Origin: a virus
Virus record (IMG/VR): IMGVR_UViG_3300035698_013504
Location: 1-64,000 of that record
Strand: one strand, 5' to 3'
Length of the DNA: 64,000 bases
Shown here: positions 32,155-51,936 of the stretch, one piece after another
Position numbering within the stretch: position 1 is the first letter of the stretch
Layout of the letters: the number at the start of each line of letters is the position of its first letter
Notes under the pieces: generated by a model
Databases searched by the model: none
Seen by the model: only the letters and a program-made list of their open reading frames with translations
What the model was told of the DNA's origin: nothing
Translations under genes and position numbers: made by a program

Positions 32155-33612
32155 ATGGCCAAGGACGCTGCCCCAGGACTCCCAGACTTCACGCGTTACG
32201 GGAGTACACGCACCCTTCCACTCAACAAGCTCATACCCTATGTTGTGCAGGAGCACAACGCAAAGAGAGCGGGGAAACACAATGATATTCGGTTTGGGCC
32301 GGACCAGCTCTTTAGCTGGGCAACGAAGAAGCCCCTTCCGGAAGCGGGGGAGCGAATCGCCGTTTATCAGCAGCCCCTCCACCGCGGCTCCTACGCCGAG
32401 TTCGAAGGCACAATCCTTAACGGATACGGAAAAGGAACCGTCAAGCGAAAAGACAAAGGATTCGTCCTCGTCACCAAAGTGGATAATGACAAAGTCTCCT
32501 TCGTAGTAGCCCACAAGAAGTTCCCGGAGAGGTACACCCTCGTTCGTGATAAGAAGGCGCCGAAGACCTGGTACTTGATCAATACGACCCCGATGGACGT
32601 GGGGCGTATGCTGTCAGGCAAAAAGGTTGACCCGGGCGGTAACGCATCTGACGCCCTAGGTATCAACAAGCTCAAGTACACCAAGGTTCCTGAGGAGCAG
32701 GTCGAGAAGCTCTTCAGCAGCGATTACCTCAACAGCGAGAAGATTGACGGCGCCGCGGCACTGTACCACGTCCTCTCTGATCGTATCGAGGCGCTCTCCT
32801 ACCGTGTAAGCAAGACGGGCCGACCTCTCATCCATACATATAAGGTCGGAGGTCTCACAGGCGTCAATATCCCCAAGGAGTTCGTTGGCTCGGTTCTACG
32901 AGGTGAGGTGTGGGGCGAGCGTAAGGGCGAAGCCATACCCCCACAAGAGCTTGGCGGCCTACTCAACTCGTCGCTGGCCAAGAGTATTCAAGATCAGAAG
33001 AAGACTGGCGTCACCATGCGTAACGCCCTCTTCGACATCTATCGGCTCGGTAAGACACCTATCGATCCAAATCTCCCCTACGCGGAGAGAATGGCTAAGA
33101 TCCAAGAAGTTCTCGACCATATGCCACAGAACAAGTTCCACCTCCCGCGCATGGCCGGGACGGAGGAGGAGTCTCGTAAGCTGTGGGAGGACATCAAGGG
33201 CGGCAAGAACCCCAGAACGACCGAGGGCATGGTTTCATGGCCTAAGGCTGGTGGCAAGCCCGTCAAGGTCAAGTTGCTGAATGAGCAGGACGTATGGGTG
33301 AAAGAAGTGTTCCCAGGCAAAGGTCGCCTTGAGGGCCACTCGGCTGGCGGCTTCAGCTATTCCCGATCGCCCGAAGGTCCGGCTGTTGGCGAGGTGGGGA
33401 GTGGCTTCACTGATGATACCCGTAAGCAGATGTGGGACCAACGTAAAGATTGGATCGGCAGGTTGGCGAGAACTCAGAGTCAAGGCGCCTTCCCAAGCGG
33501 CGCATTACGCTCGCCGGTCTTCCACGGTCTTCACGAAGATTATCCAGCTAAGTCAGCTGCGTGGCATGCCGGGCTTCGTGACGGCGTGGAGCAGGCGTCT
33601 GTCTCACGTTAG
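32155..33612 (+). CDS. ATP-dependent DNA ligase fused to an N-terminal 3'-phosphoesterase-like domain (485 aa)
   Basis: Residues ~30-140 match the LigD-type phosphoesterase pattern: EHNAKRAGKHNDIRFG, LFSWATKKPLPE and a G-S-Y-A-E-F-E-G-T-I beta segment. The nucleotidyltransferase follows: SEKIDGAAAL holds motif I with adenylated Lys196; VLRGEVWGE is motif III, EGMVSWP motif IV and KPVKVKLL motif V. Role: sealing DNA nicks, possibly after removing 3'-blocking groups, as in repair or genome circularisation. The order (phosphoesterase before ligase) differs from common LigD. It opens the right-hand half of the window from its own promoter, whose spacing makes ATG 32155 a good start. Confidence 0.82.
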   Translation: MAKDAAPGLPDFTRYGSTRTLPLNKLIPYVVQEHNAKRAGKHNDIRFGPDQLFSWATKKPLPEAGERIAVYQQPLHRGSYAEFEGTILNGYGKGTVKRKDKGFVLVTKVDNDKVSFVVAHKKFPERYTLVRDKKAPKTWYLINTTPMDVGRMLSGKKVDPGGNASDALGINKLKYTKVPEEQVEKLFSSDYLNSEKIDGAAALYHVLSDRIEALSYRVSKTGRPLIHTYKVGGLTGVNIPKEFVGSVLRGEVWGERKGEAIPPQELGGLLNSSLAKSIQDQKKTGVTMRNALFDIYRLGKTPIDPNLPYAERMAKIQEVLDHMPQNKFHLPRMAGTEEESRKLWEDIKGGKNPRTTEGMVSWPKAGGKPVKVKLLNEQDVWVKEVFPGKGRLEGHSAGGFSYSRSPEGPAVGEVGSGFTDDTRKQMWDQRKDWIGRLARTQSQGAFPSGALRSPVFHGLHEDYPAKSAAWHAGLRDGVEQASVSR

Positions 33613-33735: not shown

Positions 33736-35994
33736 ATGGCCAGATACCCTCAGACGCTTTCCGCCGCTGATCGTAAGCGGGTGGTGGAGCTTCTGCACGG
33801 AACAAAACCAGACCAAGGCGTCAACCCGCACGCCGGGGCTGGTCGCATTGTGGAAGGTGCGCGCAATCCCCAACGCGTGCACTTCTGCAAAAATAATCTC
33901 CCAAGAGGCATGGAGAAGGATGGCTTTGTCCTTACGGCTCCCATTGCGTTGGCAATCATGTCGGCGCTAGGTAGTGGTTCCGGCGTTTACGGACTCTCTC
34001 AGGCAGGGCGGGTTGTTGATGCGAAAGATAAGTACCGGAGTACGATGCTACGTGACCAGGCGTTGTTTAGGAATCTCAACAAGACATTTCGTCGTATGAC
34101 AAACACGGAGGTAGTACCTGGGCGCAGGGCTGGTGAGGCGTCGTTGAAGGGTAAGGTAGTCCCCGAAGTGATTGATGTTGGTACCCAGCTTTTCGATCTT
34201 TGGGGGGACCGAGATAACCAGTCGGCGTACGATACAGTCATGAAGACCAAGAGTTTGGCCAAGTACTCCGTCGGCAAGATGCATGAAACCATGATAGCTC
34301 GAGGGTGGAAGCCGGAGGAAGTTGGCGCCACCCTCATTAAGATGCGCGAACTCAAGTTGCTTGAGGGTGAAAAGGTATACTACAAGGGTAAGCCGGTAGA
34401 CCTGGCGTATACCCCGCAGTCTATCGATTTTGTGACAGAGGGCGGCCCGGCTGTTGCAGCCGCGGTGTTCAAGCTTCGGGAAGCCGGTAAAACTTCAGAG
34501 GAACTTAGAACTTACCACGCGAGAGCTCAGAAGTGGAGAAAGGTTAATGACCCTGCGTTTTACGCCGAGACATCACAGTTTGGCGTTGAGGAGGAGGCCG
34601 CAGCAAACAAGTTGGAGTTTGCGAAGACACTTCTCAATAGCGGGTATAACGAGCGAGATGCGGTAAGAGCCGCTAACGAAGTTGCCGCCGCTGACAACGG
34701 AGACTACCCCCTCTCCCCCAGGGTTGCGAAACACTACATTGACAACGGGTCTAATCGTATTATGCAACCGGACGGGTGGATGTCGTTACCGACTGTTGGT
34801 AAAGATATGTCGCGGTATTATAATAACGTAGGTGACGCCAGGGGCGGGAGTTCGGTCGAAGCCCTCCGCGGAATGAGGAACGAACTGGGTATAGACGTTG
34901 CGGCCCCACATGTTGGCGGCGCTATCGTAGATACCGCCCGGATAGCGAAGAACGTACCCAAGGGCTTGCGAGCCGCGTACGGCGTAGCCAAAGGTAGTGA
35001 CACAGCGAAGCTGGTAGGACGTCTTGTTTCGAACACGCGGAGTATGGGATCTTTCCCGGGGCTACGATCGCTCGGCGGTAAAGCGCTTGGTGGCGCCGGA
35101 AAAGCCGCGGCAACGTTAGCGTTGTGGCACGCAGGTATAAATTCAGCAAAAGCTGTTGGCGGCGCATTGTATGACGGCGCAGTACATGGCCAGGGACCGT
35201 TTGACACCCCGGAGTTTGAGGGGTTTCAGAATATGCTGGATGAAAGAGCCACGCTTGATAAGGCGAAAGGGAAGAACAAGTTCTTGAGTTGGGTGCAGGA
35301 AGGACTTACGGGAGCTCTTAAATTCGACCCAGGGTACAACTTGAACATGGTCGGGTCCGGCCAGTTGAACCGGTACACCTCTCAGGACCTTGAAGCAGAC
35401 ATCGCGGCTGCAGACAAGGCGCACGCCACCGGTATGCCGATGTCGTGGGCCGAGAAACTCTTGTCCGGTAGAAGCTACGTCAACGCTACCCGGCGCGGGC
35501 AACATTATAAGGACGGCAGTGAGCTGTTGCGTAGACTTATGGTTAGACCCCTTCGTGCCAGAAAGGACTTCACGACGAACACGGGGTCCACAGCTCCAAG
35601 CGGCAGTACCTACTTGCGTGACATTCATCGCAATGAGTTTGCATCTATGGGCCACGCGATGGACTACTGGTCTAAGAATTACCCGGAGATGATGGACATT
35701 TCTCAGGGCGGAAGATGGATGCGGCGTGTTGGACCTGTGCCGGAGTCCACCCCGAGCTATTTCTCTGCTGGTGACATGATTTACGTTCCAGAGAGCCAGC
35801 AAGCAACGACGACACACCAGCCGATCGTTGAGCGCAGTAAGGCGGTTGATCTTGTGCAGCAGGGGTTAAATAGTTACAGGCTTATGGACCCTTCGGTACA
35901 CAGACGTGATATCTTGAAACCTAATCCCACAATTTCACCTACAATGAGAGGTCTCATTGGTCGTGACCCGGTGGCACCCACGTATAAGGAGTAA
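33736..35994 (+). CDS. large hypothetical protein, probably virion- or membrane-associated (752 aa)
   Basis: Begins ARYPQTLSAADRKRVVELLH. Two Gly/Ala-rich hydrophobic stretches (LTAPIALAIMSALGSGSGVY ~residue 60; LGGKALGGAGKAAATLALWH ~residue 455) could insert in membranes; the rest is helical and basic. The C-terminal third is rich in Tyr, Arg and Met. No enzymatic motif. Such proteins with glycine-rich helices recur down to 59 kb, so this may be an internal virion or ejection protein. That is inference from context. Confidence 0.62.
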   Translation: MARYPQTLSAADRKRVVELLHGTKPDQGVNPHAGAGRIVEGARNPQRVHFCKNNLPRGMEKDGFVLTAPIALAIMSALGSGSGVYGLSQAGRVVDAKDKYRSTMLRDQALFRNLNKTFRRMTNTEVVPGRRAGEASLKGKVVPEVIDVGTQLFDLWGDRDNQSAYDTVMKTKSLAKYSVGKMHETMIARGWKPEEVGATLIKMRELKLLEGEKVYYKGKPVDLAYTPQSIDFVTEGGPAVAAAVFKLREAGKTSEELRTYHARAQKWRKVNDPAFYAETSQFGVEEEAAANKLEFAKTLLNSGYNERDAVRAANEVAAADNGDYPLSPRVAKHYIDNGSNRIMQPDGWMSLPTVGKDMSRYYNNVGDARGGSSVEALRGMRNELGIDVAAPHVGGAIVDTARIAKNVPKGLRAAYGVAKGSDTAKLVGRLVSNTRSMGSFPGLRSLGGKALGGAGKAAATLALWHAGINSAKAVGGALYDGAVHGQGPFDTPEFEGFQNMLDERATLDKAKGKNKFLSWVQEGLTGALKFDPGYNLNMVGSGQLNRYTSQDLEADIAAADKAHATGMPMSWAEKLLSGRSYVNATRRGQHYKDGSELLRRLMVRPLRARKDFTTNTGSTAPSGSTYLRDIHRNEFASMGHAMDYWSKNYPEMMDISQGGRWMRRVGPVPESTPSYFSAGDMIYVPESQQATTTHQPIVERSKAVDLVQQGLNSYRLMDPSVHRRDILKPNPTISPTMRGLIGRDPVAPTYKE

Positions 35995-35998
35995 CGAG

Positions 35999-37189
35999 AT
36001 GACTGAGGAAACGCCCGTACCCGACGAGAAGCCTGTAGAGGATGTATTCGCGGCGGATATCGTTGATATCCCGGATATTCCTTTGCCGGATATTAGCGCA
36101 CAGGAAGTCCCCATCTCCGATAACTTCGACGCGGCTTTTCGCGTTGCAATCATCGGTGTAGGCCAGGGCGGTTCTCGTATCGCCGAGACGTTCTACAAGA
36201 TGGGTTACCGCAAGGTCTGCGTGGTTAACACAGCGTTGCAGGACCTGGGCGGCATTGACATCCCCGACACCAACAAACTGGCGATTGGTACGCACGGGGC
36301 GGGTAAGGACCCGTCGAAAGCGCGCGCGATCTTCCAGACCAAGGAGAGCGATGTCTACGACCTTATGCGGCGTAGCTTTGGCTCTGAGTTTGACTGGATC
36401 CTCGTCTGCGCCGGTTCTGGAGGCGGCACAGGTGGTGGCATCTTGCTAGACACCGTCAGGCTGTCTCACGAGCTCATGCGTACGCTTAAGCTAGAACCTG
36501 AAGGCACATGCCGGGTTGGCGCTGTTGTGGCCCTCCCAAAGAACAGCGAAGGCGTTAAGCCCTCAGCGAACAGCTTCCGTTTGATGAAGGAAGTCTTCCC
36601 GCTAGCTCTTGGGTCGAAGAAGCAGAAGCGATCGATCAGCCCGTTGATCATCATAGACAACGAGCAAATTCGACGCCTTTACCCCCGCGTGCCCGTTACG
36701 CAGCACTGGGAAATCGCGAACCGGAGCATCTGCTCGCTCTTCCATCTGTTCAACAGCATCTCTATTAAGCCGTCGAAGTTCACCTCGTTTGACCAGGCGG
36801 ACTTGGAGACAATCCTTACAAGTGGTATCCTTACGTTTGGCGCCACCCCGGTTGCGAAGTGGGATGGCCTCACGGATATCGCATTCGCGCTGCGTGACAA
36901 TCTCAGCAAGAACATCCTTGCCGCGACGTCTACGGCGGGTACGGTTGCTGGCGGTATCGTCATCGCAGGACAACAGATTCTTGAGCAGCTGCCTTCAGCC
37001 AACATTGAACACGGCTTTGAGCAGCTGACCCGTATGATGAAAGACGGCAGTATGCTCCATCAGGGCATCTACCCGGGTAGTAAGCCTACGCTGGTTGTTT
37101 ACACGGTGCTAGGCGGCTTGGACATTCCTGATGAGCGTATGTTGGAGCTGGAGACCGTCGGTCAGTTGCGTGATTGGGACGGAGCCTAA
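35999..37189 (+). CDS. FtsZ/tubulin-like GTPase of phage type (396 aa)
   Basis: The ATG at 35999 follows AAGGAGTAACG; a GTG upstream at 35957 would overlap the previous gene. Motifs in order: glycine loop VAIIGVGQGGSRIAETF, VCVVNTALQDL, the tubulin signature GSGGGTGGGILLDTV that contacts GTP phosphates, and a T7-like loop FTSFDQADLETILTSG with acidic residues for hydrolysis. The first ~45 residues are an acidic extension. Phage relatives (TubZ/PhuZ groups) form filaments that position phage DNA. Sequence style here is closer to FtsZ. Likely role: filament for positioning replicating genomes or capsids, or interference with host division. Confidence 0.85.
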   Translation: MTEETPVPDEKPVEDVFAADIVDIPDIPLPDISAQEVPISDNFDAAFRVAIIGVGQGGSRIAETFYKMGYRKVCVVNTALQDLGGIDIPDTNKLAIGTHGAGKDPSKARAIFQTKESDVYDLMRRSFGSEFDWILVCAGSGGGTGGGILLDTVRLSHELMRTLKLEPEGTCRVGAVVALPKNSEGVKPSANSFRLMKEVFPLALGSKKQKRSISPLIIIDNEQIRRLYPRVPVTQHWEIANRSICSLFHLFNSISIKPSKFTSFDQADLETILTSGILTFGATPVAKWDGLTDIAFALRDNLSKNILAATSTAGTVAGGIVIAGQQILEQLPSANIEHGFEQLTRMMKDGSMLHQGIYPGSKPTLVVYTVLGGLDIPDERMLELETVGQLRDWDGA

Positions 37190-40127: not shown

Positions 40128-43100
40128 ATGCCCAAGATTCTCGGAGAGGACATCTTTTCGTTCGATGATATCCCGGCCGCACGTAAAGATATCTTCGCTC
40201 GTACCCTCTCGGCTTTTCAGGGAAAATACCCCATTGAGAACTCGAGGTACAAACTTCGGCTGCAGAACCTGCGGTACGACAAGCCCAAAGACTTTTCACT
40301 AAGCGATCAGAAGAAGGCGCTACTCCAGCACGGTTCACTCTCTCACAGACTTAAGGGTACGTGGACGCTGGAGGACAAAGCTGGTCAGGTGGTTGACGCG
40401 GCAGAGCGTGTTGTCGCACACGTGCCCTATATGACAAACCGGGGTACGTTTATCAACCAAGGTCGTGAATATACGATTACCAACCAGATGCGTCTTCGCC
40501 CTGGGGTGTACGCTCGTGAGAAAGAGAACGGAGCCCTTGAGGCTCACTTCAACGTCAAACCTGGATCAGGTTCCTCTTTCAGAGTTTACATGGAGCCTGA
40601 GACCGGTATCTTTCGTCTCAACATTCATCAGGCGACTCCGAAACTGTTTCCAGTCCTTCGGGCGATGGGTATTGACCGACGAGAACTCATCAAGTGGTGG
40701 GGAGAAGATATCGTCAGAGTCAACGAAGAAGCCGACGACCCTAGGGCCGTCAAGCGACTCCACGAGATCCTGACCCGCAAGCGCGCGAAGAAGGGCGTCG
40801 GCGACAACGAGGACGTAGCTAAGACTTTGCGCGAAGCTCTTGAAGCCATGGAGCTCGACGAAGAGACAACGACATCTACGCTCGGCGCCGCGTACAAGAA
40901 TGCGTCTGCTCCGGCCATCCTCCGCGCGACACAGAAGCTGCTTAACATCAGACACGGTAAGGAAGAGGCCGATGACCGAGACTCACTTCGATACCAAACC
41001 TTCCACACACCTGCAGACTTCTTTGCAGAGCGGGTTACCCTTGATGCCGGTCAGAAGTCCCGAAGACTTCTCTGGCGTTCAACCCTTCGGAGCGGGGTGC
41101 AGCACATCACGGGCGGGGCGCTTACCCCCCAGATGGAGAGCGTCCTTCTTCATTCAGGGCTAGGCCAGCCACTTGAGGAGATCAACCCCCTCGACATCCA
41201 CGATCAGCGCCACCGAGTTGTACGTTTAGGTGAGGGCGGTATCTCTTCAATCGATAGAATCCCCGAAGAGAGTCGTAATGTGCAACCGTCCTACTTCGGC
41301 CTCATTGACCCCATCCGTACCCCGGAGTCCATCAAGGTTGGTGTCGACAACCGCATTGCTCATCACACCTATTACGGCAAGGACGGTAAGTTCTACAGCC
41401 AGCTGCAGAACCCTAAGACCGGGGAGACAGAGTACGTTGACGCGGCAGAGATGTCGAAGTCTACGATCGCCTTCCCTGAGGAGATGGGGAAGAAGGGCAG
41501 CAAGGTCCGCGCCATGGTCGGCGGTTCCAGTGTTGAGTTCGTGGACAAGAAGGCTGTCGACTACATTCTTCCCACAAGCACACAGATGTTCAACTTCCAC
41601 TCCAACCTTGTCCCGTTTATCAGCGGTATCAAGGGTGGCCGCCTTCTCATGGGTTCCAAGTTCTTCAACCAAGCTCTTGCCCTTCGTGAGGGCGAGGCTC
41701 CGCTCGTTCAGGCCCTTGATCCTCACGAGACCGGTATCCGAGGCAAGGATACTAGCTTTGAGGATCTGGCGGGTACCAGCTTAGGCGCTGTGCATGCTAA
41801 GGATTCGGGGCAGGTCTTACGAGTTACGAAGGACGCTGTCTCAGTCAAACATGCAGACGGAAAGGTGAAGACGTATGACCTGTACAATAACTTCCCCTTC
41901 AACCGCAAAACCTTTATCCATAACACAGCGGTTGTGCAGCCGGGCGACGTCGTCAAACCAGGGCAGATACTTGCGCGGAGCAACTACACCGATAAGGGTG
42001 GCTCGCTCTCTATGGGGGTCAACCTCCGAACCGCTTATATGCCTTACAAAGGACTGAACTTCGAGGATGCGATTGTCATCTCCGAGGGCGCCGCGAAGAG
42101 GATGGCCAGTGAGCATATGTACAGCCGGGACATTGACGAGTCTGAGGGTGCAAAGGTAAGCCGTCGCAACTTCATCTCAATGTTCCCTACGAAGTACGAG
42201 AAGCCCCAGCTCGACACGATTGATGAAAACGGCGTGATCAAGCCCGGCACGACCGTGAAGAAGGGCGACCCGTTGATTCTCGGCGTAATGAAGCGCCCGG
42301 CTTCTAAGCTGTACCGCGGCGGTCGAGTCTCTATGTTCAAGGACATCTCAGTCGTATGGGACCACGAGGCTGACGGTGTAATCACCGACGTCGAGAAGAA
42401 AAAGGGCGGTTGGAACGTCATCGTCAAGTCTTACGAGCAGATGCAGGAGGGTGACAAGCTCTCTGGCCGCTACGGTGACAAGGGCGTGGTAGCCCGTATC
42501 GTCCCTGACGCACAGATGCCACACGGTAAGGACGGCGTCCCCTACGAGGTCTTACTTAACCCCCTCGGTATCGTCAGTCGTACTAACCCGAGCCAGATCT
42601 ACGAAGCGCTCCTCGGTAAGATTGCCCGCAAGCGCGGCGTACCCTATAAGGTGCCTGCGTTCATGGATAAGTCTCTTATCGACTACACTCGTAGAGAGAT
42701 GGCGCGACACAATGTCACCGACACCGAAGATCTCATTGATCCCATGACCGGTAAGAAGATTCCCGACGTATTGACTGGTGAGCGTTTCATCCTCAAGCTC
42801 CAGCACACAGCCGAAAGTAAGGGTAGTGGACGTTCACAGGCATCGTACACAACGGAAGGTCTTCCTGCGGGCGGTGGCGACGAAGGTGCGAAGAAGATTG
42901 GCCAGATGGCTTTGACCGCGCTTCTCTCTCACGGAGCCAGCGAGGTGATCCGTGATGCCGCCGTTGTACGCGGTCAGCGTAACGACGACTACTGGCGAGC
43001 TTTCCGCCTTGGGTACTCACCGCCCACACCCAAGGAGACCCTCGTCTACAAGAAGTTCCTTGACAGCCTCAAGGCAGCCGGTATTAACGTGTCGAAGAAG

Positions 43101-44507
43101 GGCAACGATGTTCACGTCTTTGCGCTCACCAACAATGACGTGAAGACTATGTCACACGGAGAGATCAAGTCCTCCGACACACTGGACCCGAAGAGTGGTC
43201 GCCCCATCCCGGGCGGCTTGTTTGACATGAAGACGACAGGTGGTGTTGGCGGCAACAACTGGGCGCACATCAAGCTGCCCGAGCCTATTTTGAATCCTGT
43301 CATGGAGAAGCCCGCGCAGGTTCTCCTCGGCATCACCGGCCCTAAGTTCATGAGTGTTGTGTCCGGTAAGACACCGCTGCACGGTAAGTATGGTGGGCAT
43401 GCGCTGGTAGAGGCCTTAAAGCGTATCAACGTCGACCAGGAGATCGAGCGCACACGACAGGAGGTGCGTACAGCCACGCAGACTAAGCGCGACCGGGCAG
43501 TCAAGAAGCTTGGCTACCTGAATGCGATGAAGAAGCATGGCGTGAGCCCGCAGGACTTCATGTTGAGCTCGGTCCCGGTACTTCCCCCGTCTTTCCGTCC
43601 GATCGTGATGCAGGACAAGATGAAGCTGGTTGCGCACCCCAACCTTCTGTATAAGGATCTGTTGGACGCGAAGCAGGACTTCACCGAGCTCTACCCCGAT
43701 GTAGGTGACGAGGGCGTTGGTGATGAGCGTCTACGCATCTACAACTCATTCAAGGCTGTTGCCGGGCTTGGCTCACCTGTATCCAGGAAGCTACAGGAGA
43801 AAAGTGTCCAAGGTCTCCTCGGTCACATCTTTGGCGGAAGCCCTAAGATGGGCGCCTTCCAGCGTAGAGTCCTCGGCATTCCTACTGACGTAGTAGGTCG
43901 AGCCGCGATTACACCGAACCCCTCGCTGAACATGGACCAGGTTGGTCTACCCGAGGAGAAGGCGTGGACGATCTACCGCCCCTTCATCATTCGTAAGCTG
44001 GTACGTAGAGGTATGCCCGCGGTCGCAGCAGCCAAGCTTGTTGCGAGCAAAGGTAAAGCCGCACACGCCGCGATGTTGGAAGTTGCGAGTGAGCGCCCCG
44101 TATTGATCAACCGCGCCCCCACGCTCCATAAGTTCGGTTTGATGGCCGCATGGCCTGTTATCGTTAAGGGTCACACGTTGCAGATTCCGCCGGTTATCGT
44201 CAGCGGGTTTAACGCCGACTTCGACGGCGATGCGATGAATTACCACGTCCCGGTAACGGATGAGGCGGTCAGGGAAGCAAAGGAGAAAATGCTCCCCAGT
44301 AGCAACCTTCTTTCGGTGTCAGACTTCAAAACTCACTACCACCCTAAGAATGAGTTCTTGCTTGGACTCTACCTTGCGAGTAAGATGAAGAAGAAGAAAC
44401 AACAGGCCAAGACGTTCAATACGAAGGAAGACGCGCTTAAGGCGTATGCGCGTGGCGAACTTACCGTAGATGACCCGGTCATCATTATGCAGGATGAAAA
44501 GTTATGA
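40128..44507 (+). CDS. phage RNA polymerase, beta subunit fused to N-terminal part of beta' (1459 aa)
   Basis: Residues 1 to ~990 correspond to beta: RTPESIKVGVDNR-type fork region, GLNFEDAIVISE (~643), GDKLSGRYGDKGVVARIVP (~774) with the active-site lysines, NPLGIVSRTNPSQI, and the GAKKIGQMALTALL end (~917). Residues ~1000-1459 correspond to beta' up to the catalytic centre: GEIKSSDTLD, WAHIKLPEPI, RPVLINRAPTLHKFGLMA and NADFDGDAM with Mg-binding D1364, D1366 and D1368. The beta' zinc-finger cysteines near its N-terminus are absent. The beta' remainder is at 47270. A fusion at this joint is known to be tolerated, but natural cases are uncommon. Role: transcription of phage genes, early if packaged in the virion, late if not. 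Confidence 0.93.
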   Translation: MPKILGEDIFSFDDIPAARKDIFARTLSAFQGKYPIENSRYKLRLQNLRYDKPKDFSLSDQKKALLQHGSLSHRLKGTWTLEDKAGQVVDAAERVVAHVPYMTNRGTFINQGREYTITNQMRLRPGVYAREKENGALEAHFNVKPGSGSSFRVYMEPETGIFRLNIHQATPKLFPVLRAMGIDRRELIKWWGEDIVRVNEEADDPRAVKRLHEILTRKRAKKGVGDNEDVAKTLREALEAMELDEETTTSTLGAAYKNASAPAILRATQKLLNIRHGKEEADDRDSLRYQTFHTPADFFAERVTLDAGQKSRRLLWRSTLRSGVQHITGGALTPQMESVLLHSGLGQPLEEINPLDIHDQRHRVVRLGEGGISSIDRIPEESRNVQPSYFGLIDPIRTPESIKVGVDNRIAHHTYYGKDGKFYSQLQNPKTGETEYVDAAEMSKSTIAFPEEMGKKGSKVRAMVGGSSVEFVDKKAVDYILPTSTQMFNFHSNLVPFISGIKGGRLLMGSKFFNQALALREGEAPLVQALDPHETGIRGKDTSFEDLAGTSLGAVHAKDSGQVLRVTKDAVSVKHADGKVKTYDLYNNFPFNRKTFIHNTAVVQPGDVVKPGQILARSNYTDKGGSLSMGVNLRTAYMPYKGLNFEDAIVISEGAAKRMASEHMYSRDIDESEGAKVSRRNFISMFPTKYEKPQLDTIDENGVIKPGTTVKKGDPLILGVMKRPASKLYRGGRVSMFKDISVVWDHEADGVITDVEKKKGGWNVIVKSYEQMQEGDKLSGRYGDKGVVARIVPDAQMPHGKDGVPYEVLLNPLGIVSRTNPSQIYEALLGKIARKRGVPYKVPAFMDKSLIDYTRREMARHNVTDTEDLIDPMTGKKIPDVLTGERFILKLQHTAESKGSGRSQASYTTEGLPAGGGDEGAKKIGQMALTALLSHGASEVIRDAAVVRGQRNDDYWRAFRLGYSPPTPKETLVYKKFLDSLKAAGINVSKKGNDVHVFALTNNDVKTMSHGEIKSSDTLDPKSGRPIPGGLFDMKTTGGVGGNNWAHIKLPEPILNPVMEKPAQVLLGITGPKFMSVVSGKTPLHGKYGGHALVEALKRINVDQEIERTRQEVRTATQTKRDRAVKKLGYLNAMKKHGVSPQDFMLSSVPVLPPSFRPIVMQDKMKLVAHPNLLYKDLLDAKQDFTELYPDVGDEGVGDERLRIYNSFKAVAGLGSPVSRKLQEKSVQGLLGHIFGGSPKMGAFQRRVLGIPTDVVGRAAITPNPSLNMDQVGLPEEKAWTIYRPFIIRKLVRRGMPAVAAAKLVASKGKAAHAAMLEVASERPVLINRAPTLHKFGLMAAWPVIVKGHTLQIPPVIVSGFNADFDGDAMNYHVPVTDEAVREAKEKMLPSSNLLSVSDFKTHYHPKNEFLLGLYLASKMKKKKQQAKTFNTKEDALKAYARGELTVDDPVIIMQDEKL

Positions 44508-44767
44508 TGTTACTCGACGACATGTTTCTTCCAGAGCCGATGATTAAGGCCTCGCGCGCGTTCGATCAACTGCGCGTAGACCTGGCGTTCTCTTCCGCTA
44601 TTGAGAAGATATCCCGTAAGAAGTCGACGATCAGTGAAGCCGCCGAGAGGGTCGGTACAAAGGATAAGCCCGGCTTTAAGCTTTTGATGGATATGCGGAA
44701 AGACGACGAGAAACGTAAGAAGAAAAAGAAGAAGAAAAACAGACGCTCTCGACGTTCCAGGAGATAG
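44504..44767 (+). CDS. small protein with very basic tail (87 aa)
   Basis: ATGA overlap with the polymerase stop. Residues 1-60 are helical (PMIKASRAFDQLRVDLAFSS); the tail KRKKKKKKKNRRSRRSRR would bind nucleic acid strongly. Its position between polymerase subunits suggests a DNA- or RNA-binding accessory; not demonstrated. Confidence 0.62.
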   Translation: MMLLDDMFLPEPMIKASRAFDQLRVDLAFSSAIEKISRKKSTISEAAERVGTKDKPGFKLLMDMRKDDEKRKKKKKKKNRRSRRSRR

Positions 44768-44769
44768 AT

Positions 44770-44979
44770 GTGCCCATCCCAAGCAACAGTCTGCTAACCT
44801 TCAAAATACGGAAGCCATTGACTCCAGAACGACTTCCTAAGAAAATAGGTATTGAAGATCAACGTGTATGGCAGCAGTTGTACGACGGCCTTGCTGCCTC
44901 AAAGCAACGTGTAGTATCGGCGCACACAACTGCTCGCCAGAAGGTCAAAGATCTTTTCAAACGTGCGAGTGCAATCTGA
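44770..44979 (+). CDS. small hypothetical basic protein (69 aa)
   Basis: GTG start two bases after the preceding stop, with CCAGGAGATAGAT upstream. Basic and helical (LTFKIRKPLTPERLPKKIGI; ARQKVKDLFKRASAI). No family recognised. It lies between the two polymerase genes with three others. Confidence 0.58.
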   Translation: MPIPSNSLLTFKIRKPLTPERLPKKIGIEDQRVWQQLYDGLAASKQRVVSAHTTARQKVKDLFKRASAI

Positions 44980-44998
44980 GCACAAGGAGGTTACACGT

Positions 44999-45673
44999 AT
45001 GTCGGGTATGAACGATAAGCTGTTAGATCAGCTGGAAGAGCGGTTTGAGAAGCAGAGCTTTGTCCCCATGGGCGCAGAAGGCGCCGCCGCTCCCCCGCCT
45101 ATGGATCCCGCTGGAGGCGCCGCGATGGCGTTGCCGCCCGGTATGCCTCCGATGGACCCGCAGATGATGGGCGGCGCGCCTCCCGGCATGCCTCCGATGC
45201 CCGGCGGTGACCCTGCCGCGATGGGTATGGACCCCGCCGCAATGGGCGGAGCCCCGGCTGAAGGCGGTGAGCAGGTTTCCGTTAGCATGGACGACCTTCG
45301 TCGCATGGTTCAAGAGATGGGTGGAGCAACCGCTGGTAGCGATCCTGCGGCCCCGGCCCCCGCTGGCGCCGACGTAAAGGGGCGTAAGGTTCAGCCCGAA
45401 GAACTCTCAAATAAGCTGGATGCGCTTAGCACTCGCTTCGACCAGTTGATTGGTGCGCTTACAGGTGGTGAGATGGGCGTACAACCCGCGCCGCCCCCCG
45501 ACGCTCTTGCTGGCGCTGACGGCAGTATGGCTGCACCTCCGGAAGAAACTGCGCCCGCACCCCCGCTGGACGAGATGATGGGCGCCCCGAAGGCCGCCAA
45601 CTTGAATGACGCCGTCAGTCGGTCTGTCGCCGGAATCGCCGCTCGTTTGCGCGCAAAGCTGCAACAGGAGTAG
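44999..45673 (+). CDS. proline/glycine/methionine-rich protein with FEKQ motif (224 aa)
   Basis: The ATG at 44999 follows ACAAGGAGGTTACACGT, a strong ribosome site. The N-terminus DKLLDQLEERFEKQSFVPMG contains the EKQ motif. Residues 30-100 are low-complexity Pro/Gly/Met repeats (GMPPMDPQMMGGAPPGMPPM), then a helix near residue 150 (ELSNKLDALSTRFDQLIGAL) and another at the C-terminus. Similar composition to the scaffold-like protein at 60685. Probably a structural or assembly protein. Confidence 0.6.
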   Translation: MSGMNDKLLDQLEERFEKQSFVPMGAEGAAAPPPMDPAGGAAMALPPGMPPMDPQMMGGAPPGMPPMPGGDPAAMGMDPAAMGGAPAEGGEQVSVSMDDLRRMVQEMGGATAGSDPAAPAPAGADVKGRKVQPEELSNKLDALSTRFDQLIGALTGGEMGVQPAPPPDALAGADGSMAAPPEETAPAPPLDEMMGAPKAANLNDAVSRSVAGIAARLRAKLQQE

Positions 45674-45675
45674 GC

Positions 45676-45924
45676 ATGAGGGTACGTGTACAGTCTGGAA
45701 GCATTTTAACATCAGCCCCGGTAGAATTACCGGATGTTGGCTCAGCTGTTGTCTATGACGATTACGGTCAGCCAATCGTTGTTGTTCAGAAGCAAGAAGA
45801 TGGGCAGATATTAATGGTGCGTGCTGGTGAGCCTAAGTTTCACGAGCTGCTCCGTATCCTAGGTATTGGGTTGAACGCTACGGTAACGGTTGGTTCCGTC
45901 CGTGACGGGAGGATTGAATCATGA
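45676..45924 (+). CDS. small hypothetical protein (82 aa)
   Basis: GGAGTAGGC precedes the ATG. Beta-rich pattern (RVRVQSGSILTSAPVELP; GSAVVYDDYGQPIVVVQKQE). No family recognised. ATGA overlap with the next gene. Confidence 0.6.
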   Translation: MRVRVQSGSILTSAPVELPDVGSAVVYDDYGQPIVVVQKQEDGQILMVRAGEPKFHELLRILGIGLNATVTVGSVRDGRIES

Positions 45925-47252
45925 CACGCGCACTTGTTGAGCGTCAAATCTACGCCTTTCTCGACGGTATCGACGAGTTTGGAAAACAAGCCTCGATGTC
46001 TGTTGGGCAGACCGAGAACCTGAAAGACGCCGCGCTGCTTCGTATATGGGATGAGATTGGGCGCCCCCCGATTGAGAAGGTTGCAGAGAATCCGCTCGGT
46101 GGCACCATGGATCCTGAAAACCTGGTCAAGCCGGTCCCGATGCCAGAGCCGGACCCCAAGGCACTCGGCGCCTCGCCGGGCCCCGCGGTCAAAATGCCTG
46201 AGCCAGATCCTAAGGCACTCGGCGCCTCGCCGGGACCCGCGGTCAAAATGCCTTCACCGTTTGGCCCTACCCAGTCTGGCGGCAACCTTTCCCCAGGAAA
46301 CAAAGTAGCGCCAGGTAAAACACCTGCGGCAAAACAGACCGCGGTAACCGACCCCAAGAAAACACAGAAGACCCCTGTAAATCGCGCGGGTCTTGTGCAA
46401 CAGTTTATCAACTATGCGATTAAGAACCCCGGACAGCTGGCCATGATTCTTTCGATGTTTACGGCTGGCGGTATCGGCGGAGGTATGATGGGCGGTTGGA
46501 AGGGCGGAATCGCGGGCGCTCTTGCTGGTGGTCTTACGGGTTATGGCCTTAGCACCATCCCCGAACTGCGGCAGTACGCCAAGGGTAAGACACAAAAATT
46601 GTTTGGAATCCGCTCCGGGGATGAGATTGCCAGCGGAGTGGCCAGACATCAGACGTTCAACCCGGTGCATGACGATTCAGACCTGGGAACACTGGGGCCG
46701 GATATCAGGGAATGGATTGAAAACAAGTTTCCTGAAGGTGAAATTATGCGTCATAAGGGCGCGCTCGCGGAGTCTATGGCGGAGTTTGAAGCGGCGAACC
46801 CGGGGCAAATCCCCTTCAAGGACGTAAACATCGAGATGTACAACAGCCTGCGTGAGCAGGTTGGCATGAAAACGCCGTGGACTCCAGCCCAGGGCCTTTC
46901 AGAGTATCTCGCGAACCCGCCACTGCCTGGTGCTGAGGCCACTGCCCAAGCCCCGGCGGCTCCGTTTGTGGTTACGGAAGAGCTAAATACGCAGCTGAAG
47001 AGCATTATAGACAAGATGAATAAGCCCAGGTTGGGGATGGTTCCGCCTGACGCGCTGGTTGGAATTATGATGCCCGGCGAACTTAAAGCACTTCACCCGC
47101 ACGAGCTGGCTACGCTTAAGCAAGCAGCCGCTGCCTTCAGGGCGCATACGGCCCAGCATCCTGAAAACGTACCAATGCCAGGTGTTAAGCCCGAGTTGTG
47201 GCCCGGCGCTGTTCGGCTCTTCAAAATAGGCATTGAGCAAGGTCTCTTTTAG
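45921..47252 (+). CDS. proline-rich protein with glycine-zipper segment and EKVA motif (443 aa)
   Basis: ATGA overlap at the start. N-terminus: GIDEFGKQASMS (~18) and IEKVAENPLGG (~51). Residues ~75-112 hold two perfect 18-residue repeats beginning EPDPKALGASPGPAVKMP. The central MFTAGGIGGGMMGGWKGGIA plus GALAGGLTGYGL is a glycine-zipper hydrophobic region. The C-terminal 200 residues are helical. Candidate internal virion or membrane protein located between polymerase subunits. Confidence 0.62.
   Translation: MTRALVERQIYAFLDGIDEFGKQASMSVGQTENLKDAALLRIWDEIGRPPIEKVAENPLGGTMDPENLVKPVPMPEPDPKALGASPGPAVKMPEPDPKALGASPGPAVKMPSPFGPTQSGGNLSPGNKVAPGKTPAAKQTAVTDPKKTQKTPVNRAGLVQQFINYAIKNPGQLAMILSMFTAGGIGGGMMGGWKGGIAGALAGGLTGYGLSTIPELRQYAKGKTQKLFGIRSGDEIASGVARHQTFNPVHDDSDLGTLGPDIREWIENKFPEGEIMRHKGALAESMAEFEAANPGQIPFKDVNIEMYNSLREQVGMKTPWTPAQGLSEYLANPPLPGAEATAQAPAAPFVVTEELNTQLKSIIDKMNKPRLGMVPPDALVGIMMPGELKALHPHELATLKQAAAAFRAHTAQHPENVPMPGVKPELWPGAVRLFKIGIEQGLF
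46146..46253 (+). repeat. two tandem 54-nt direct repeats inside a gene
   Basis: Period exactly 54 bases (18 codons), copies differing at a few positions, mostly silent (GAGCCGGACCCC versus GAGCCAGATCCT). The amino-acid repeat is preserved, which hints at selection on the protein or a recent duplication. Confidence 0.85.
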
Positions 47253-47269
47253 TAGCGCGTTACAGAACT

Positions 47270-49120
47270 ATGATCAGAACGACACTTGGACAAGTACTTG
47301 TGAACGAGGCGCTCCCGGAAGACCTCCGGGACTATGACCGTGTGTTCACAAAGAAATCAGTGCCCGACCTGTTCATGTCTCTAGCGCAGAATCACCCGGA
47401 GAAGTATCGCGATGTCATTCAGAAACTGATGATGATTGGCCAGGAGGTGTCGACCGGCTACGGCCGTAACGCCAGCCTCTCACTCAAGGATGTAGCCCCA
47501 CCTGAGGAGCGTAAAGACATCCTGGAGAAGCTAGAAGGTGAGATCGCCGCCCTTAACGAGAACCCGACGCTACCTACAGCATCGAGGAACAAGAGTATTA
47601 TCCTCAAGGTGTTGAAAGCCCAACAGCTATTGAAGACCATTAACATGGAAACAGGAGAGCGCGACGGTAACACCTTTGCTCTTCAAATCCTTTCCGGCGC
47701 CCGCGGTAACCCCAACCAGTTCGCATCTCTACGAGTTGGTGATGGACTCGTTACCGATCACCGCGATGACCCTATCCCCATCCCTATCCTTCATAGTTAC
47801 GCTGAGGGCCTGGACCCTGTCGAGTACTGGGCTGGTTCCTACGGTGCGCGTAAGGGTACGATGGCTGGTAACCTCGGTACACCTAAGTCTGGTTTCTTCG
47901 GCAAACAGATCGCGTTGTCAGCCCACCGCATGATTGTCACTGAGAAGGACTGCGGCACAGAGAATGGTATCCCTGTTGACGCAGACGACTCCGACAACGA
48001 AGGCGCCCTGCTCGCCAGAGGATACGGCAAGTACAACGCAAATACGATCATCACACCTCGCATGACTCAGGAGCTTGAGAAGGAGAAGTCGATCCTCGTA
48101 CGATCTCCTATCACCTGCGATGCGGCTAACGGTGTGTGTCAAAAGTGTGTTGGGGTACGTGAACGCGGCACGCTTCCCCCTCTTGGTGATAACGTAGGGG
48201 TGACAGCCGCGACCGCGATCTCTGAACCTATGACGCAGGCGCCCCTCTCCGCCAAGCATACAGGCGGTGTCGCAGAAGAGAAGGACAAGAAGGTGCAGGG
48301 GTTCGACGCAATCAACAGGCTCGTCCAGATCCCTAAGACCTTCCCGGAAGCCGCGACAGTCTCACGAGTTGACGGCGTCGTTACGAATATCATTGAAGCG
48401 CCCCAGGGTGGCCACTTCGTCGAGGTAGGCGGAGAACGCCACTACGTACCCGAAGAGCGCGAGATCACCATTAAAGAGGGCGAGACCCTCGAGGCGGGTG
48501 ACGCGCTGTGTGATGGTATCCACAACCCGGCGGACGTGGCGCAGTACAAAGGTATTGGACAGGCGCGTAAGACATTCGTTGAGCAGTTCCGCCAAGTCGC
48601 AGACAATACGAACATTCGCGTCAACCGCCGGAACCTTGAGCTTCTGTCGCGCGGTATTGTAAACCACGTGCGAGTCAACGAGCTTGACGGTGTCGATGAT
48701 GCGCTGCCGGGGGATGTCCGAGAATTTGACTCCGTGACGAGAGGGTATCAGCCTCGTTACGGCTTCAAGACGTTGACTCCCCAGCGTGCGGTTGGTAGTT
48801 ACCTCGAGAAGCCAATCAACCAGTACTCGATTGGCACAAAGGTTACGCCCCGCATGGTAAAAGAGATGCAGGGCATGGGCATCAAGAAACTTACATCACA
48901 CGTTGACCCGCCTCCCTTTAACCCAGAGATGCGGCGTATCATGGAGACGCTCTCCTACGCCGACGATTGGATGGTAAGGTTAGGCGGTTGGTACTTAAAG
49001 AAGGGGTTGGGCGAAGCCGCGCATTTCGGCTCAACATCTAAGCAGCACGGATCTTCATATATCCCCGCTCTCGCGCAGGGAACCCAGTTCGGGCGGGTGC
49101 CCGAAGGAAAAGGATACTAA
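47270..49120 (+). CDS. phage RNA polymerase, C-terminal part of beta' (616 aa)
   Basis: Opens IRTTLGQVLVNEALPEDLRD, equal to the beta' region just after the catalytic loop (T-x-G-R/Q-x-L-x-N-E). The second zinc site is kept: ITCDAANGVCQKCVG (~283-297). The trigger-loop/bridge region GVTAATAISEPMTQAPLSAK followed by HTGGVAEE (~309-337) matches the canonical G-E-P-x-T-Q ... H-x-G-G block, here S-E-P-M-T-Q. The C-terminal end YLKKGLGEAAHFGSTSKQH is unlike bacterial beta'. Works with the 40128 product; five small genes separate them. The start is 18 bases after the previous stop, near a TAGCGCGTTAC motif. Confidence 0.9.
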   Translation: MIRTTLGQVLVNEALPEDLRDYDRVFTKKSVPDLFMSLAQNHPEKYRDVIQKLMMIGQEVSTGYGRNASLSLKDVAPPEERKDILEKLEGEIAALNENPTLPTASRNKSIILKVLKAQQLLKTINMETGERDGNTFALQILSGARGNPNQFASLRVGDGLVTDHRDDPIPIPILHSYAEGLDPVEYWAGSYGARKGTMAGNLGTPKSGFFGKQIALSAHRMIVTEKDCGTENGIPVDADDSDNEGALLARGYGKYNANTIITPRMTQELEKEKSILVRSPITCDAANGVCQKCVGVRERGTLPPLGDNVGVTAATAISEPMTQAPLSAKHTGGVAEEKDKKVQGFDAINRLVQIPKTFPEAATVSRVDGVVTNIIEAPQGGHFVEVGGERHYVPEEREITIKEGETLEAGDALCDGIHNPADVAQYKGIGQARKTFVEQFRQVADNTNIRVNRRNLELLSRGIVNHVRVNELDGVDDALPGDVREFDSVTRGYQPRYGFKTLTPQRAVGSYLEKPINQYSIGTKVTPRMVKEMQGMGIKKLTSHVDPPPFNPEMRRIMETLSYADDWMVRLGGWYLKKGLGEAAHFGSTSKQHGSSYIPALAQGTQFGRVPEGKGY

Positions 49121-49698: not shown

Positions 49699-49737
49699 GA
49701 AACAGTAATGGCGGTGTAACGGAGGATCGTGAGAGCT

Positions 49738-51936
49738 ATGCCTGGATCCCAACTCGAATCCGCGTTTGCTAACCTTGCGCACGCTCGTCTCAAAGACCGT
49801 GCTCCCGGGCTGTTGGACTTCCTCATTGGATTCCAGCTGCTCGATAAGAATGAGGAAGAGACTCGGGCTGTTGGCGTATTTGGATTCAAAATAAAAGCAG
49901 AATGGTATTACAACCCCGTCTTTTATCTGAACGGCCGCCTCAAAGGCGAGGAGCTCTTGTACATTAAGAGCCAGGATGCCTTTGTGCCGCTGCAGGAGAA
50001 CTGGGTCAACTACTTGACCAGTCGTAGGCCCCGAGTCCTCGGCGAGTTCGAGGAAAAGCCTACGAGTCAGCTTGGGTTCCTAGAGCCTGACCTGTCGATC
50101 TTCCGCAATGCCGACTTCCTGGGCAAGAACAGCTCGTTCCCCCTTGACCAGGATGGTCTGCGCTCTCTATACACTGCGAGCCCCTTCGCCGACAAGTTCG
50201 AGGGTCTTGCTGACAAGTTTCACCTGCCCACCTTCTTGAAGGAAGCAGGCCCCCGCGCTCTCGAGTGTCTTGTTCAGACCATGGTATCCCACGACAAGTT
50301 CGCGGAAGTGGTCTTGAACTTCTACGACTTCGCCGAACTGGCTGAAGCTCGCTTCAACGCGGTGATGGGCAAGCAGGCCGCAGCTAAGCCCGAGGCTGGC
50401 AAACTCGTCATCGTCTCTCGTCGTGACTGGGAAGACCTCCCCGACAACCTCTCGTGTGATGCGCGCGATAAGCTGAGGAATCAGCTCGTTAAGCGTACGA
50501 TCGCAATCGAGGACAACCGCGACGAAGAGGACACGACGGCCGTCTACAACACCGAGACTCTTGGTAAGAGCCTGATGAGCCCCGATGAGAGCGGCCTCTT
50601 TAGTATGCTCATGCGTAACGGGGACATGAAGGAAGTCATGATCTTCAAGTCGCCCTGTAGCCTAGGGTACGACGAAGGGGAAGACGGGTCTAACCGTGTT
50701 GTGGTTGTCGACAAAGCCGAGAAGAACTACGGCAATTGCTGGGCCGACGCGATCTTCGTCACCCCCTCAAAGCCTGACGCTGTTGATGGCTGGAAAGCCT
50801 TCTTTGATAAGTTGCCAGAAGCCACGACCATCGAGGTCGACGGGATCTATATCCTCGTCAACGAGAAGATGCAGTCTTCGACGCCGTTCCAGGTCGAGAA
50901 AACGATTACGAATCCGGACGGTAAAGTCACGGCCAAAATCCACACCCGTGACTACATGAGTTACCGCGACCGTTCAGACCGTCTCAACCCGCCCCCGCGT
51001 AGACGCCACGGTGGTTGTATGCCGTCTTGCGATAGTGGCTCTGCGGATGAAATCGTCCTTACAAAGAAACCAGGAGCTCGCATCACGCGGCTGAGTCGCG
51101 CAGCGTACGTTCCCCTTGGGTACAAGGTGATCAAGTTGTCCGACGAGTTCGGACCCAACAAGATCATTGATCCGGGCACCCTCTCGGATCTGGAACACCA
51201 GATCTTCAAGGTTGGCAGCCTCCGCCACCTTAAGGTCTACACCGCCGACGGTCATGAGTACTTCATCAACACTGACGACAAGGACTTTATGGAGCCTCTG
51301 TCGAAAGATGCCGCACTGCGTTCCCTCGTAGCGCAGCATGGCATTCAGGCTGATGTGGCTTATGACATGATCGGTAGGGCGAAGCGCGACAAGGCTGCGC
51401 GATACTTCGTTAAGTATGCGCGGGCCTATCCTACCTTCAGCTTCCCGGGCGATAACGTTCCTAGCGGGTTTGATGCGAAGAACGGTGTCAATGAGATTGA
51501 GCCTTGGGACAACGAGTACGATGTAGACATGCCGGGCGATGCCCCGCCGAACGAACCCGATATGCCGGATGACGTACGTCGGCTGGCCGAAGATGCCGGT
51601 AATACCGGTCAGAAGGAAGTATTGGACACCTCAGTGCTTGCAGGGCTCGTAAAGACCGTGAATTCTGATGATGTCACCGACAAATATCTAGGGGATATCC
51701 TCCTGGGCCTCGACCGAGTGGGCCGTATCCTCTTCATGTTCTACTGGCACAACGATAAGTTCAGGGAACGCTACGGTCAGCAGGACATGCCTGAGCTGGA
51801 AGACAGTCTACGTAACGTATTCCAGCAGATGGGTGACCTAGCACTCTTCCTCAAGCAGAAGACTGTGGAGCCGGAACCCGGCGATGAGGAAGCTGAACTT
51901 GACCTTGACAGTGTAGCCTCAGGAGGGATGCAGTAA
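49738..51936 (+). CDS. large conserved-looking hypothetical protein (732 aa)
   Basis: The ATG at 49738 is chosen over GTG 49729, which sits only three bases from GGAGG. It opens PGSQLESAFANLAHARLKDR, then GFQLLDKNEEETRAVGVFGF and FYLNGRLKGEELLYIKSQDA, an alpha/beta N-terminal domain. The internal FNAVMGKQAAAKPEAG (~residue 218) carries the K-Q-A-A motif. A Cys/Pro stretch PPPRRRHGGCMPSCDSG lies mid-protein; the end is acidic. I have the impression that proteins of this type recur in uncultured phages, but the function is unknown. Virion association is inferred from context. Confidence 0.65.
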   Translation: MPGSQLESAFANLAHARLKDRAPGLLDFLIGFQLLDKNEEETRAVGVFGFKIKAEWYYNPVFYLNGRLKGEELLYIKSQDAFVPLQENWVNYLTSRRPRVLGEFEEKPTSQLGFLEPDLSIFRNADFLGKNSSFPLDQDGLRSLYTASPFADKFEGLADKFHLPTFLKEAGPRALECLVQTMVSHDKFAEVVLNFYDFAELAEARFNAVMGKQAAAKPEAGKLVIVSRRDWEDLPDNLSCDARDKLRNQLVKRTIAIEDNRDEEDTTAVYNTETLGKSLMSPDESGLFSMLMRNGDMKEVMIFKSPCSLGYDEGEDGSNRVVVVDKAEKNYGNCWADAIFVTPSKPDAVDGWKAFFDKLPEATTIEVDGIYILVNEKMQSSTPFQVEKTITNPDGKVTAKIHTRDYMSYRDRSDRLNPPPRRRHGGCMPSCDSGSADEIVLTKKPGARITRLSRAAYVPLGYKVIKLSDEFGPNKIIDPGTLSDLEHQIFKVGSLRHLKVYTADGHEYFINTDDKDFMEPLSKDAALRSLVAQHGIQADVAYDMIGRAKRDKAARYFVKYARAYPTFSFPGDNVPSGFDAKNGVNEIEPWDNEYDVDMPGDAPPNEPDMPDDVRRLAEDAGNTGQKEVLDTSVLAGLVKTVNSDDVTDKYLGDILLGLDRVGRILFMFYWHNDKFRERYGQQDMPELEDSLRNVFQQMGDLALFLKQKTVEPEPGDEEAELDLDSVASGGMQ

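Follow-up and report, generated by a model that had tools for sequence, protein, structure and literature searches.

A predicted phage RNA polymerase with beta fused to the N-terminal half of beta' and a separate gene for the trigger-loop half

Natural rpoB-rpoC fusions, a split beta' in cyanobacteria and phages, and the single-chain two-barrel enzymes of crAss-like phages and YonO are each known separately, and engineered beta-beta' fusions and split beta' subunits of Escherichia coli are functional. Natural rpoB-rpoC fusions occur in Helicobacter, Wolinella and Wolbachia (PMC9696931, PMC7483510), and a split of beta' after the double-psi beta-barrel is common to the virion and non-virion RNA polymerases (vRNAP/nvRNAP) of phiKZ-type phages and to cyanobacterial RpoC1/RpoC2 (PMC7598289). 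Here we describe an RNA polymerase (RNAP) locus in the window, our term for the first 64 kb (64,000 nucleotides) of the 200,903-bp IMG/VR virus record IMGVR_UViG_3300035698_013504, in which a 1,459-aa chain runs from beta into the N-terminal half of beta' (beta-beta'N) and the C-terminal half (beta'C, 616 aa) is a separate gene. Sequence comparison and structural models make it very probable that this pair forms the catalytic core of a DNA-dependent RNAP of the bacterial, two double-psi-barrel type that the phage encodes, and that it belongs to one phage clade whose polymerase was fused first and cut later.

The fusion resembles that of Helicobacter, Wolinella and Wolbachia in joining the beta C-terminus to the beta' N-terminus; those enzymes, however, are cellular and contain the whole of beta' in the chain. 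The window chain does not hold beta and beta' entire, beta'C being separate, whereas a sister group of single-chain phage enzymes described below does, and is the closer analogue. Cyanobacterial and plastid RpoC1-RpoC2 likewise split beta' past the barrel, and the window beta'C starts within ~11 residues of the RpoC2 start in alignments to Protein Data Bank (PDB) chains, but in that system beta is separate and RpoC2 has roughly twice the length (1,318-1,350 residues in PDB chains). The RNAPs of crAss-like phages and YonO/P23-45 resemble the present enzymes in carrying both barrels in one phage polypeptide; their relationship to cellular beta/beta' is only remote (PMC7481178, PMC7824862), whereas the window enzymes align to bacterial beta/beta' throughout. 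The elements of the window polymerase are:

40128-44507, + strand: fused RNAP subunit, 1,459 aa, with beta (residues 1 to ~990) and the beta' N-terminal half (~993-1459), from Pfam, alignment and model
43080-43135, + strand: beta/beta' junction, GINVSKKGNDVHVFAL, from alignment to E. coli and AlphaFold
43209-43280, + strand: site of the deleted bacterial beta' N-terminal zinc ribbon (E. coli C70, C72, C85, C88), from alignment
44211-44231, + strand: NADFDGD catalytic Mg2+ loop, residues 1362-1368 (D1364, D1366, D1368), from alignment
47270-49120, + strand: beta' C-terminal subunit, separate gene, 616 aa, from Pfam, alignment and model

A preliminary description of this DNA had proposed a single 1459-residue chain running from beta to the beta' NADFDGD motif, with the trigger-loop half of beta' in a separate gene 2.8 kb on. 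We recovered both features: the first gene is an uninterrupted open reading frame (ORF) with beta and then beta' Pfam domains in one frame, namely Rpb2_3, Rpb2_6 (residues 571-908, 3.8e-52), Rpb1_1 and Rpb1_2 (1318-1387, 1.1e-25), and the 616-aa ORF, with Rpb1_5 (1.4e-22), follows after a gap of 2.76 kb. Pfam and PDB matches span both chains end to end, at about 26-30% identity between the fusion chain and bacterial enzymes. Aligned to E. coli K-12 rpoB and rpoC, the fusion conserves E646, D647, K777 and K785 in its beta part (E. coli E813, D814, K1065 and K1073) and D1364, D1366, D1368, R1329 and T1332 in its beta' part (D460, D462, D464, R425 and T428). The beta'C chain carries the trigger loop, TQAPLSAKHTGG, with H330 at the position of E. 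coli H936, and a Zn2 site (C228/C283/C290/C293). The pair therefore has both barrels, the catalytic lysine pair (K777, K785), the NADFDGD motif and the trigger-loop histidine of a bacterial-type core.

Structural models agree with this assignment. Built from an alignment of 57 natural relatives, the AlphaFold model of fusion residues 341-1459 has a mean predicted local distance difference test score (pLDDT) of 86.3 and a predicted template modelling score (pTM) of 0.78, and beta'C reaches 82.9 and 0.74. Foldseek matched the fusion model to bacterial RNAP beta (E ~1e-50) and the beta'C model to bacterial RNAP beta' (E ~1e-27). Both chains are thus modelled with confidence as parts of a bacterial-type core. 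The junction, at residues ~988-994 (nt ~43,090-43,110), is practically linker-free: the end of E. coli beta (GINIELEDE) aligns at about residue 990-992, and the E. coli beta' alignment starts at ~19-20. AlphaFold renders it as a two-strand hairpin (pLDDT 82-92), and the fusion may be read as a short turn between two segments that end chains in bacteria. The beta' N-terminal zinc ribbon is deleted in the window as well as in two cultured phages, Salmonella phage Arash and Vibrio phage D69, and the consensus of the single-chain enzymes is equally short.

The obvious concern with such a chain is that a sequencing or assembly artefact, or a frameshift, has fused two ordinary genes near 43.1 kb. 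Indel errors are possible on this contig, as the gene for the major capsid protein is broken near 63.49 kb by an apparent frameshift. At the polymerase junction, by contrast, the frame and the G+C content at third codon positions (GC3) continue without a break, and the fusion is found in more than 150 further loci from unrelated samples, the single-chain group included. The same in-frame fusion is present in the independent genomes of Arash and D69, and also in Vibrio phage D181 and locus L123, where only a homing-endonuclease cut in the beta part interrupts it. Because independent genomes share the fused frame, an artefact, which the preliminary description had named as the finding that would overturn it, is excluded; we regard its chance as negligible and the fusion as genuine. 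The capsid homolog itself (Arash gp226; window 63060-63985) comprises an N-terminal part at 63060-63608 and a remainder in another frame to 63985, with the apparent shift near 63,490 reflecting either a sequencing error or a programmed shift.

The window architecture is widespread and present in cultured phages. A single-sequence scan of viral contigs with the window protein gave no match, and megablast of the 9-kb polymerase region gave no close phage match; the relatives came from an alignment query. The exact two-gene layout was found at 82 loci (the window, Arash and D69 counted, and a few near-duplicates among them), about 80 of which are IMG/VR contigs, and 12 further loci have the fusion and no beta'C inside the fetched stretch. 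Across loci the gap between the two polymerase genes ranges from 0.57 to 5.9 kb, with a median of ~1.0 kb. In Arash (OQ632216) the fusion is gp206 (1,525 aa) and beta'C is gp216 (606 aa); in D69 the two chains have 1,527 and 609 aa. Arash and Vibrio phages D69, D148 and D181 share with the window the fusion (1,525-1,527 aa), beta'C (606-609 aa), the junction and the zinc-ribbon loss, and their fused chains are ~33% identical to the window chain over 97%. They differ in a gap of 0.6-4.8 kb and in being annotated 'RNA polymerase subunit beta' or hypothetical. Matches labelled as phages of Staphylococcus, Listeria, Enterococcus and Acinetobacter (MD-2021a) are likely bacterial rpoB-rpoC contamination, judging by their two-gene layout and annotation, and were left uncounted.

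Some relatives are cut further. In D181 (L004) and L123 the beta part is broken at the same point, profile position ~517/518, and the D181 break houses a homing endonuclease gene, a possible route for splitting polymerase genes. Five loci (L102, L111, L129, L132, L133) have a further cut in beta'N, ~105-115 residues past the junction, giving three genes.

A second, larger group carries beta, beta'N and beta'C in one ORF, typically 2,020-2,240 aa long. The first scans found 22 such loci, plus one with a fragment, and in a scan with a single-chain alignment 79 of the best 80 among at least 553 relatives were single-chain, some of these contigs having been seen already. In E. coli beta' numbering the window split lies between residues ~552 and ~572, and the single-chain relatives read straight across this site with a median of 4 unmatched residues. 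An intein-split or trans-spliced protein was considered and rejected, since neither window chain contains an intein domain and the chain ends align to ordinary beta'. At the trigger loop, H936 is invariant (87/87 window-type and 102/102 single-chain loci). The F935 position holds F in 99 of 102 single-chain loci and K or R in all 87 window-type loci, and the R933 position in the window type is mostly Ser, Gly or Asn. Nearly all Zn2 cysteines are kept in the single-chain enzymes, and they are lost in more than half of the window-type members.

We inferred the order of events, under the LG+C20 model, from a tree of 47 rows x 1,353 columns whose root was set by seven bacterial rows; archaeal, cyanobacterial, epsilonproteobacterial and Wolbachia sequences lie outside this outgroup set. 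The window type, including the subgroup cut again in beta'N, forms one clade (bootstrap/SH-like approximate likelihood ratio test, SH-aLRT, 100/99). The single-chain type is paraphyletic, forming one clade in 0% of 200 bootstrap trees, and the approximately unbiased (AU) test rejects a single clade of all single-chain enzymes (log likelihood lower by 95.8, p-AU 1e-23). Parsimony also favours an ancestral single chain, because fusion followed by one split takes two events, whereas a split-first order adds a third, an exact re-fusion. The character states agree, F935 and the Zn2 cysteines being bacterial-like in single-chain enzymes, although these states are inherited and are not independent events. 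The window type was therefore most likely derived, as far as these alignments indicate, from a fully fused single-chain beta-beta' enzyme by one later split. The ancestor would have joined beta and beta' in a single chain of ~2,100 residues, and in one branch beta' would have been cut cleanly past the catalytic barrel. As a separate observation, fused polymerases also occur in bacterial assemblies, namely L137 (a Desulfovibrio sp. An276 contig) and L138 and L139 (contigs of Deltaproteobacteria/Desulfobacteraceae metagenome-assembled genomes), a hint that sulfate reducers host some of these phages.

It is also conceivable that a phage recently captured a bacterial rpoB-rpoC fusion of the Helicobacter, Wolinella or Wolbachia kind, which was later split. 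That such fusions exist in nature lends this idea its appeal (PMC9696931, PMC7483510), but we consider it very unlikely: the window chain is only ~26-30% identical to bacterial enzymes, the beta' zinc ribbon has been lost, and a long, fully supported branch sets the phage clade off from the seven bacterial rows, none of them epsilonproteobacterial or from Wolbachia.

In a beta' tree, unfused phage enzymes form a neighbouring clade (89/86) comprising Rhizobium phage RHph_TM30, Vibrio phages Va2 and 150E35-1, E. coli phage EP_H11, Cobetia phage Carin-5 and Yersinia phage YerA41. Their beta' is whole in TM30, Va2 and Carin-5 and cut past the barrel in YerA41, 150E35-1 and EP_H11, indicating that this cut is recurrent in phages. 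The preliminary description had singled out the split for parting the metal-binding loop from the trigger loop; it does so, but such a split has several phage origins and is not unusual in itself.

These phages lead to the question of whether the window phage is one of the mReC, the multi-subunit RNAP-encoding Caudovirales (Weinheimer and Aylward 2020), whose fusion went unremarked. This would be compatible with the fused-then-split origin proposed here. Like the window enzyme, mReC and unfused phage RNAPs (TM30, Va2, Carin-5, YerA41) are bacterial-type and multisubunit and branch apart from sampled bacteria; the window enzyme falls outside the cellular clades in a tree with few bacterial and no archaeal outgroups. 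Both come from the same type of source (IMG/VR), and the mReC length and motif filter would pass fused chains. The unfused phages differ in encoding beta apart from beta' and in having a gp23-like capsid (PF07068). This mReC capsid family is present in 6/6 unfused phages tested and absent from 31/31 fused records (the window's included), Arash and D69, while the large terminase family (TerL, PF03237) occurs in 10/31 fused records and is absent from the window record. However, PF07068 was reported in 8 and PF03237 in 17 of 97 mReC contigs (PMC7481178), so these absences are weak evidence against membership, which we hold to be possible though not the likelier outcome. The mReC paper does not mention fusion or splitting of phage RNAP genes (PMC7481178), the words 'fused' and 'split' are absent from a 2026 jumbo-phage review (PMC13282480), and a literature search, outside which most subscription journals and preprints lay, found no description of a beta-beta'N plus beta'C enzyme or of a full-length bacterial-type single-chain phage lineage.

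The accessory subunits bear on how the enzyme might work. The 201-kb record, which is possibly incomplete, has a single RNAP set and no RNA_pol_L match for an alpha subunit, a search positive in 13/14 control genomes; alpha from the host could still bind. At 87943-88725 of the record lies a sigma-70-like ORF (PHROG 351, 3e-13; Sigma70_r3, 5.2e-9), homologous to the Arash gp10 sigma; the Arash annotation lists a second sigma besides gp10. In bacteria, alpha dimers nucleate the assembly of beta with beta', and the fusion could take the place of this step. The beta'C chain would dock and complete the active site with its trigger loop, and the phage sigma-like protein may steer transcription to the phage's own promoters.

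A divergent phiKZ-type (jumbo phage vRNAP/nvRNAP) polymerase would share several of these properties. The enzymes of phiKZ, AR9 and SPN3US are phage-encoded and lack alpha and omega, their beta' split site after the barrel is identical (PMC7598289), and the window chains have PHROG matches to phiKZ-type beta/beta' families. The preliminary description had stated that phiKZ polymerases split both subunits differently, which is correct for beta, in two or three pieces in phiKZ types, and incorrect for beta', cut at the same site (PMC7598289). The window beta, however, is undivided and fused to beta', its record encodes one enzyme where the phiKZ types have two, and it has a sigma-like factor that phiKZ-type phages lack (PMC7598289, PMC7824862). 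The AR9-type phage BpSp, moreover, has a gp23-like capsid, unlike the window record. A phiKZ-type origin is therefore highly improbable.

It is less clear when the enzyme would act. It could be packaged in the virion and injected with the DNA for early genes, rather than made late. Both polymerase genes adjoin conserved structural genes (the 735-aa ORF homologous to Arash gp218, in 85 loci), an arrangement compatible with packaging without proving it, and the Arash fusion gene lies just downstream of the portal. In the window genome, though, the portal is ~120 kb off, neither RNAP chain is marked as structural in the Arash annotation, and a phage sigma suggests ordinary promoter use, so that packaging is a tentative proposal, somewhat disfavoured.

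Several points weigh against a bacterial-type core that was fused first and cut later. The AlphaFold models cover the chains singly, the fusion from residue 341 on; the sigma factor is linked to the enzyme by co-occurrence only; and with the trigger-loop R933 lost in the window type, catalysis may differ. The order of fusion and split depends on two basal single-chain rows with long branches (L139, L134) plus parsimony, and the beta' tree puts the unfused phage clade between L139 and the other fused sequences. With these points in mind, we moderately favour a broader reading: a large, mostly uncultivated phage lineage with a bacterial-type beta-beta' chain of ~2,100 residues, one branch of which was re-split at the cyanobacterial/phiKZ site with coupled trigger-loop changes (R933 and F935 to mostly Ser and Lys), so that the subunit boundary shifted within the lineage. 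With two chains and no alpha, the re-split form may rank among the simplest sigma-using bacterial-type cores.

Some fused polymerases carry insertions. Five phages near the window phage have a 320-435 aa insert in the beta part at window residue ~230, absent from the window (L012:10706-11665, L017:10676-11725, L072:10637-11611, L060:8696-10000, L092:1677-2684). These inserts bear a 2H phosphoesterase/2'-5' RNA-ligase-like domain, some with weak HAD/PNKP-like and SET matches in addition; an RNA-end-processing module inside an RNA polymerase would be unusual. Intein-like inserts (LAGLIDADG and intein splicing domains where tested) occur in L060, L092, L131, L119, L134, L104, L113, L022, L103 and others; their sites are beta ~418, ~606 and ~828, the surroundings of the beta' catalytic loop, and the trigger loop or its vicinity. 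Oversized fused ORFs were accordingly dropped as candidates for extra fusions, most inserts being intein-like and a few other domains.

The five genes that the preliminary description had placed between the polymerase genes are all present, on the same strand as the latter. They and the downstream neighbour are:

44504-44767, + strand: ORF of 87 aa with a Lys/Arg-rich C-terminus, from the ORF list
44770-44979, + strand: ORF of 69 aa, from the ORF list
44963-45673, + strand: ORF of 236 aa, Met/Pro/Ala-rich, homologs in 14 related loci
45676-45924, + strand: ORF of 82 aa, homologs in 31 related loci, best conserved of the five
45921-47252, + strand: ORF of 443 aa, membrane-like, with a Gly-rich hydrophobic stretch
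49729-51936, + strand: ORF of 735 aa, homologs in 85 related loci, including Arash gp218, annotated 'structural protein'

A search of related loci found no homologs of the 87-aa, 69-aa and 443-aa ORFs; the 82-aa ORF is a candidate small polymerase-associated or structural protein. Upstream, 3 kb 5' of the polymerase, is a Tubulin/FtsZ-like GTPase (35957-37189; Pfam Tubulin 2.7e-8) with a homolog among the fetched loci in L020 only (6e-128). The ORF at 32155-33612 contains the 3'-phosphoesterase domain of DNA ligase D (PF13298, 1.9e-9), an end-processing enzyme unexpected in this block.

Judged from its sequence and models, the window polymerase is real, functional-looking and widespread. How core RNAP is cut and joined bears on its assembly and on the idea that phage enzymes are pre-cellular multi-piece relics. 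Since fusion apparently preceded the split, a phage polymerase can be split without being primitive, and polymerase pieces of the window type are probably not ancestral. The enzyme can be tested directly in cultured representatives such as Arash and D69, and an RNAP of two chains that lacks alpha and is associated with sigma would serve as a useful minimal model and perhaps as a tool for biotechnology.

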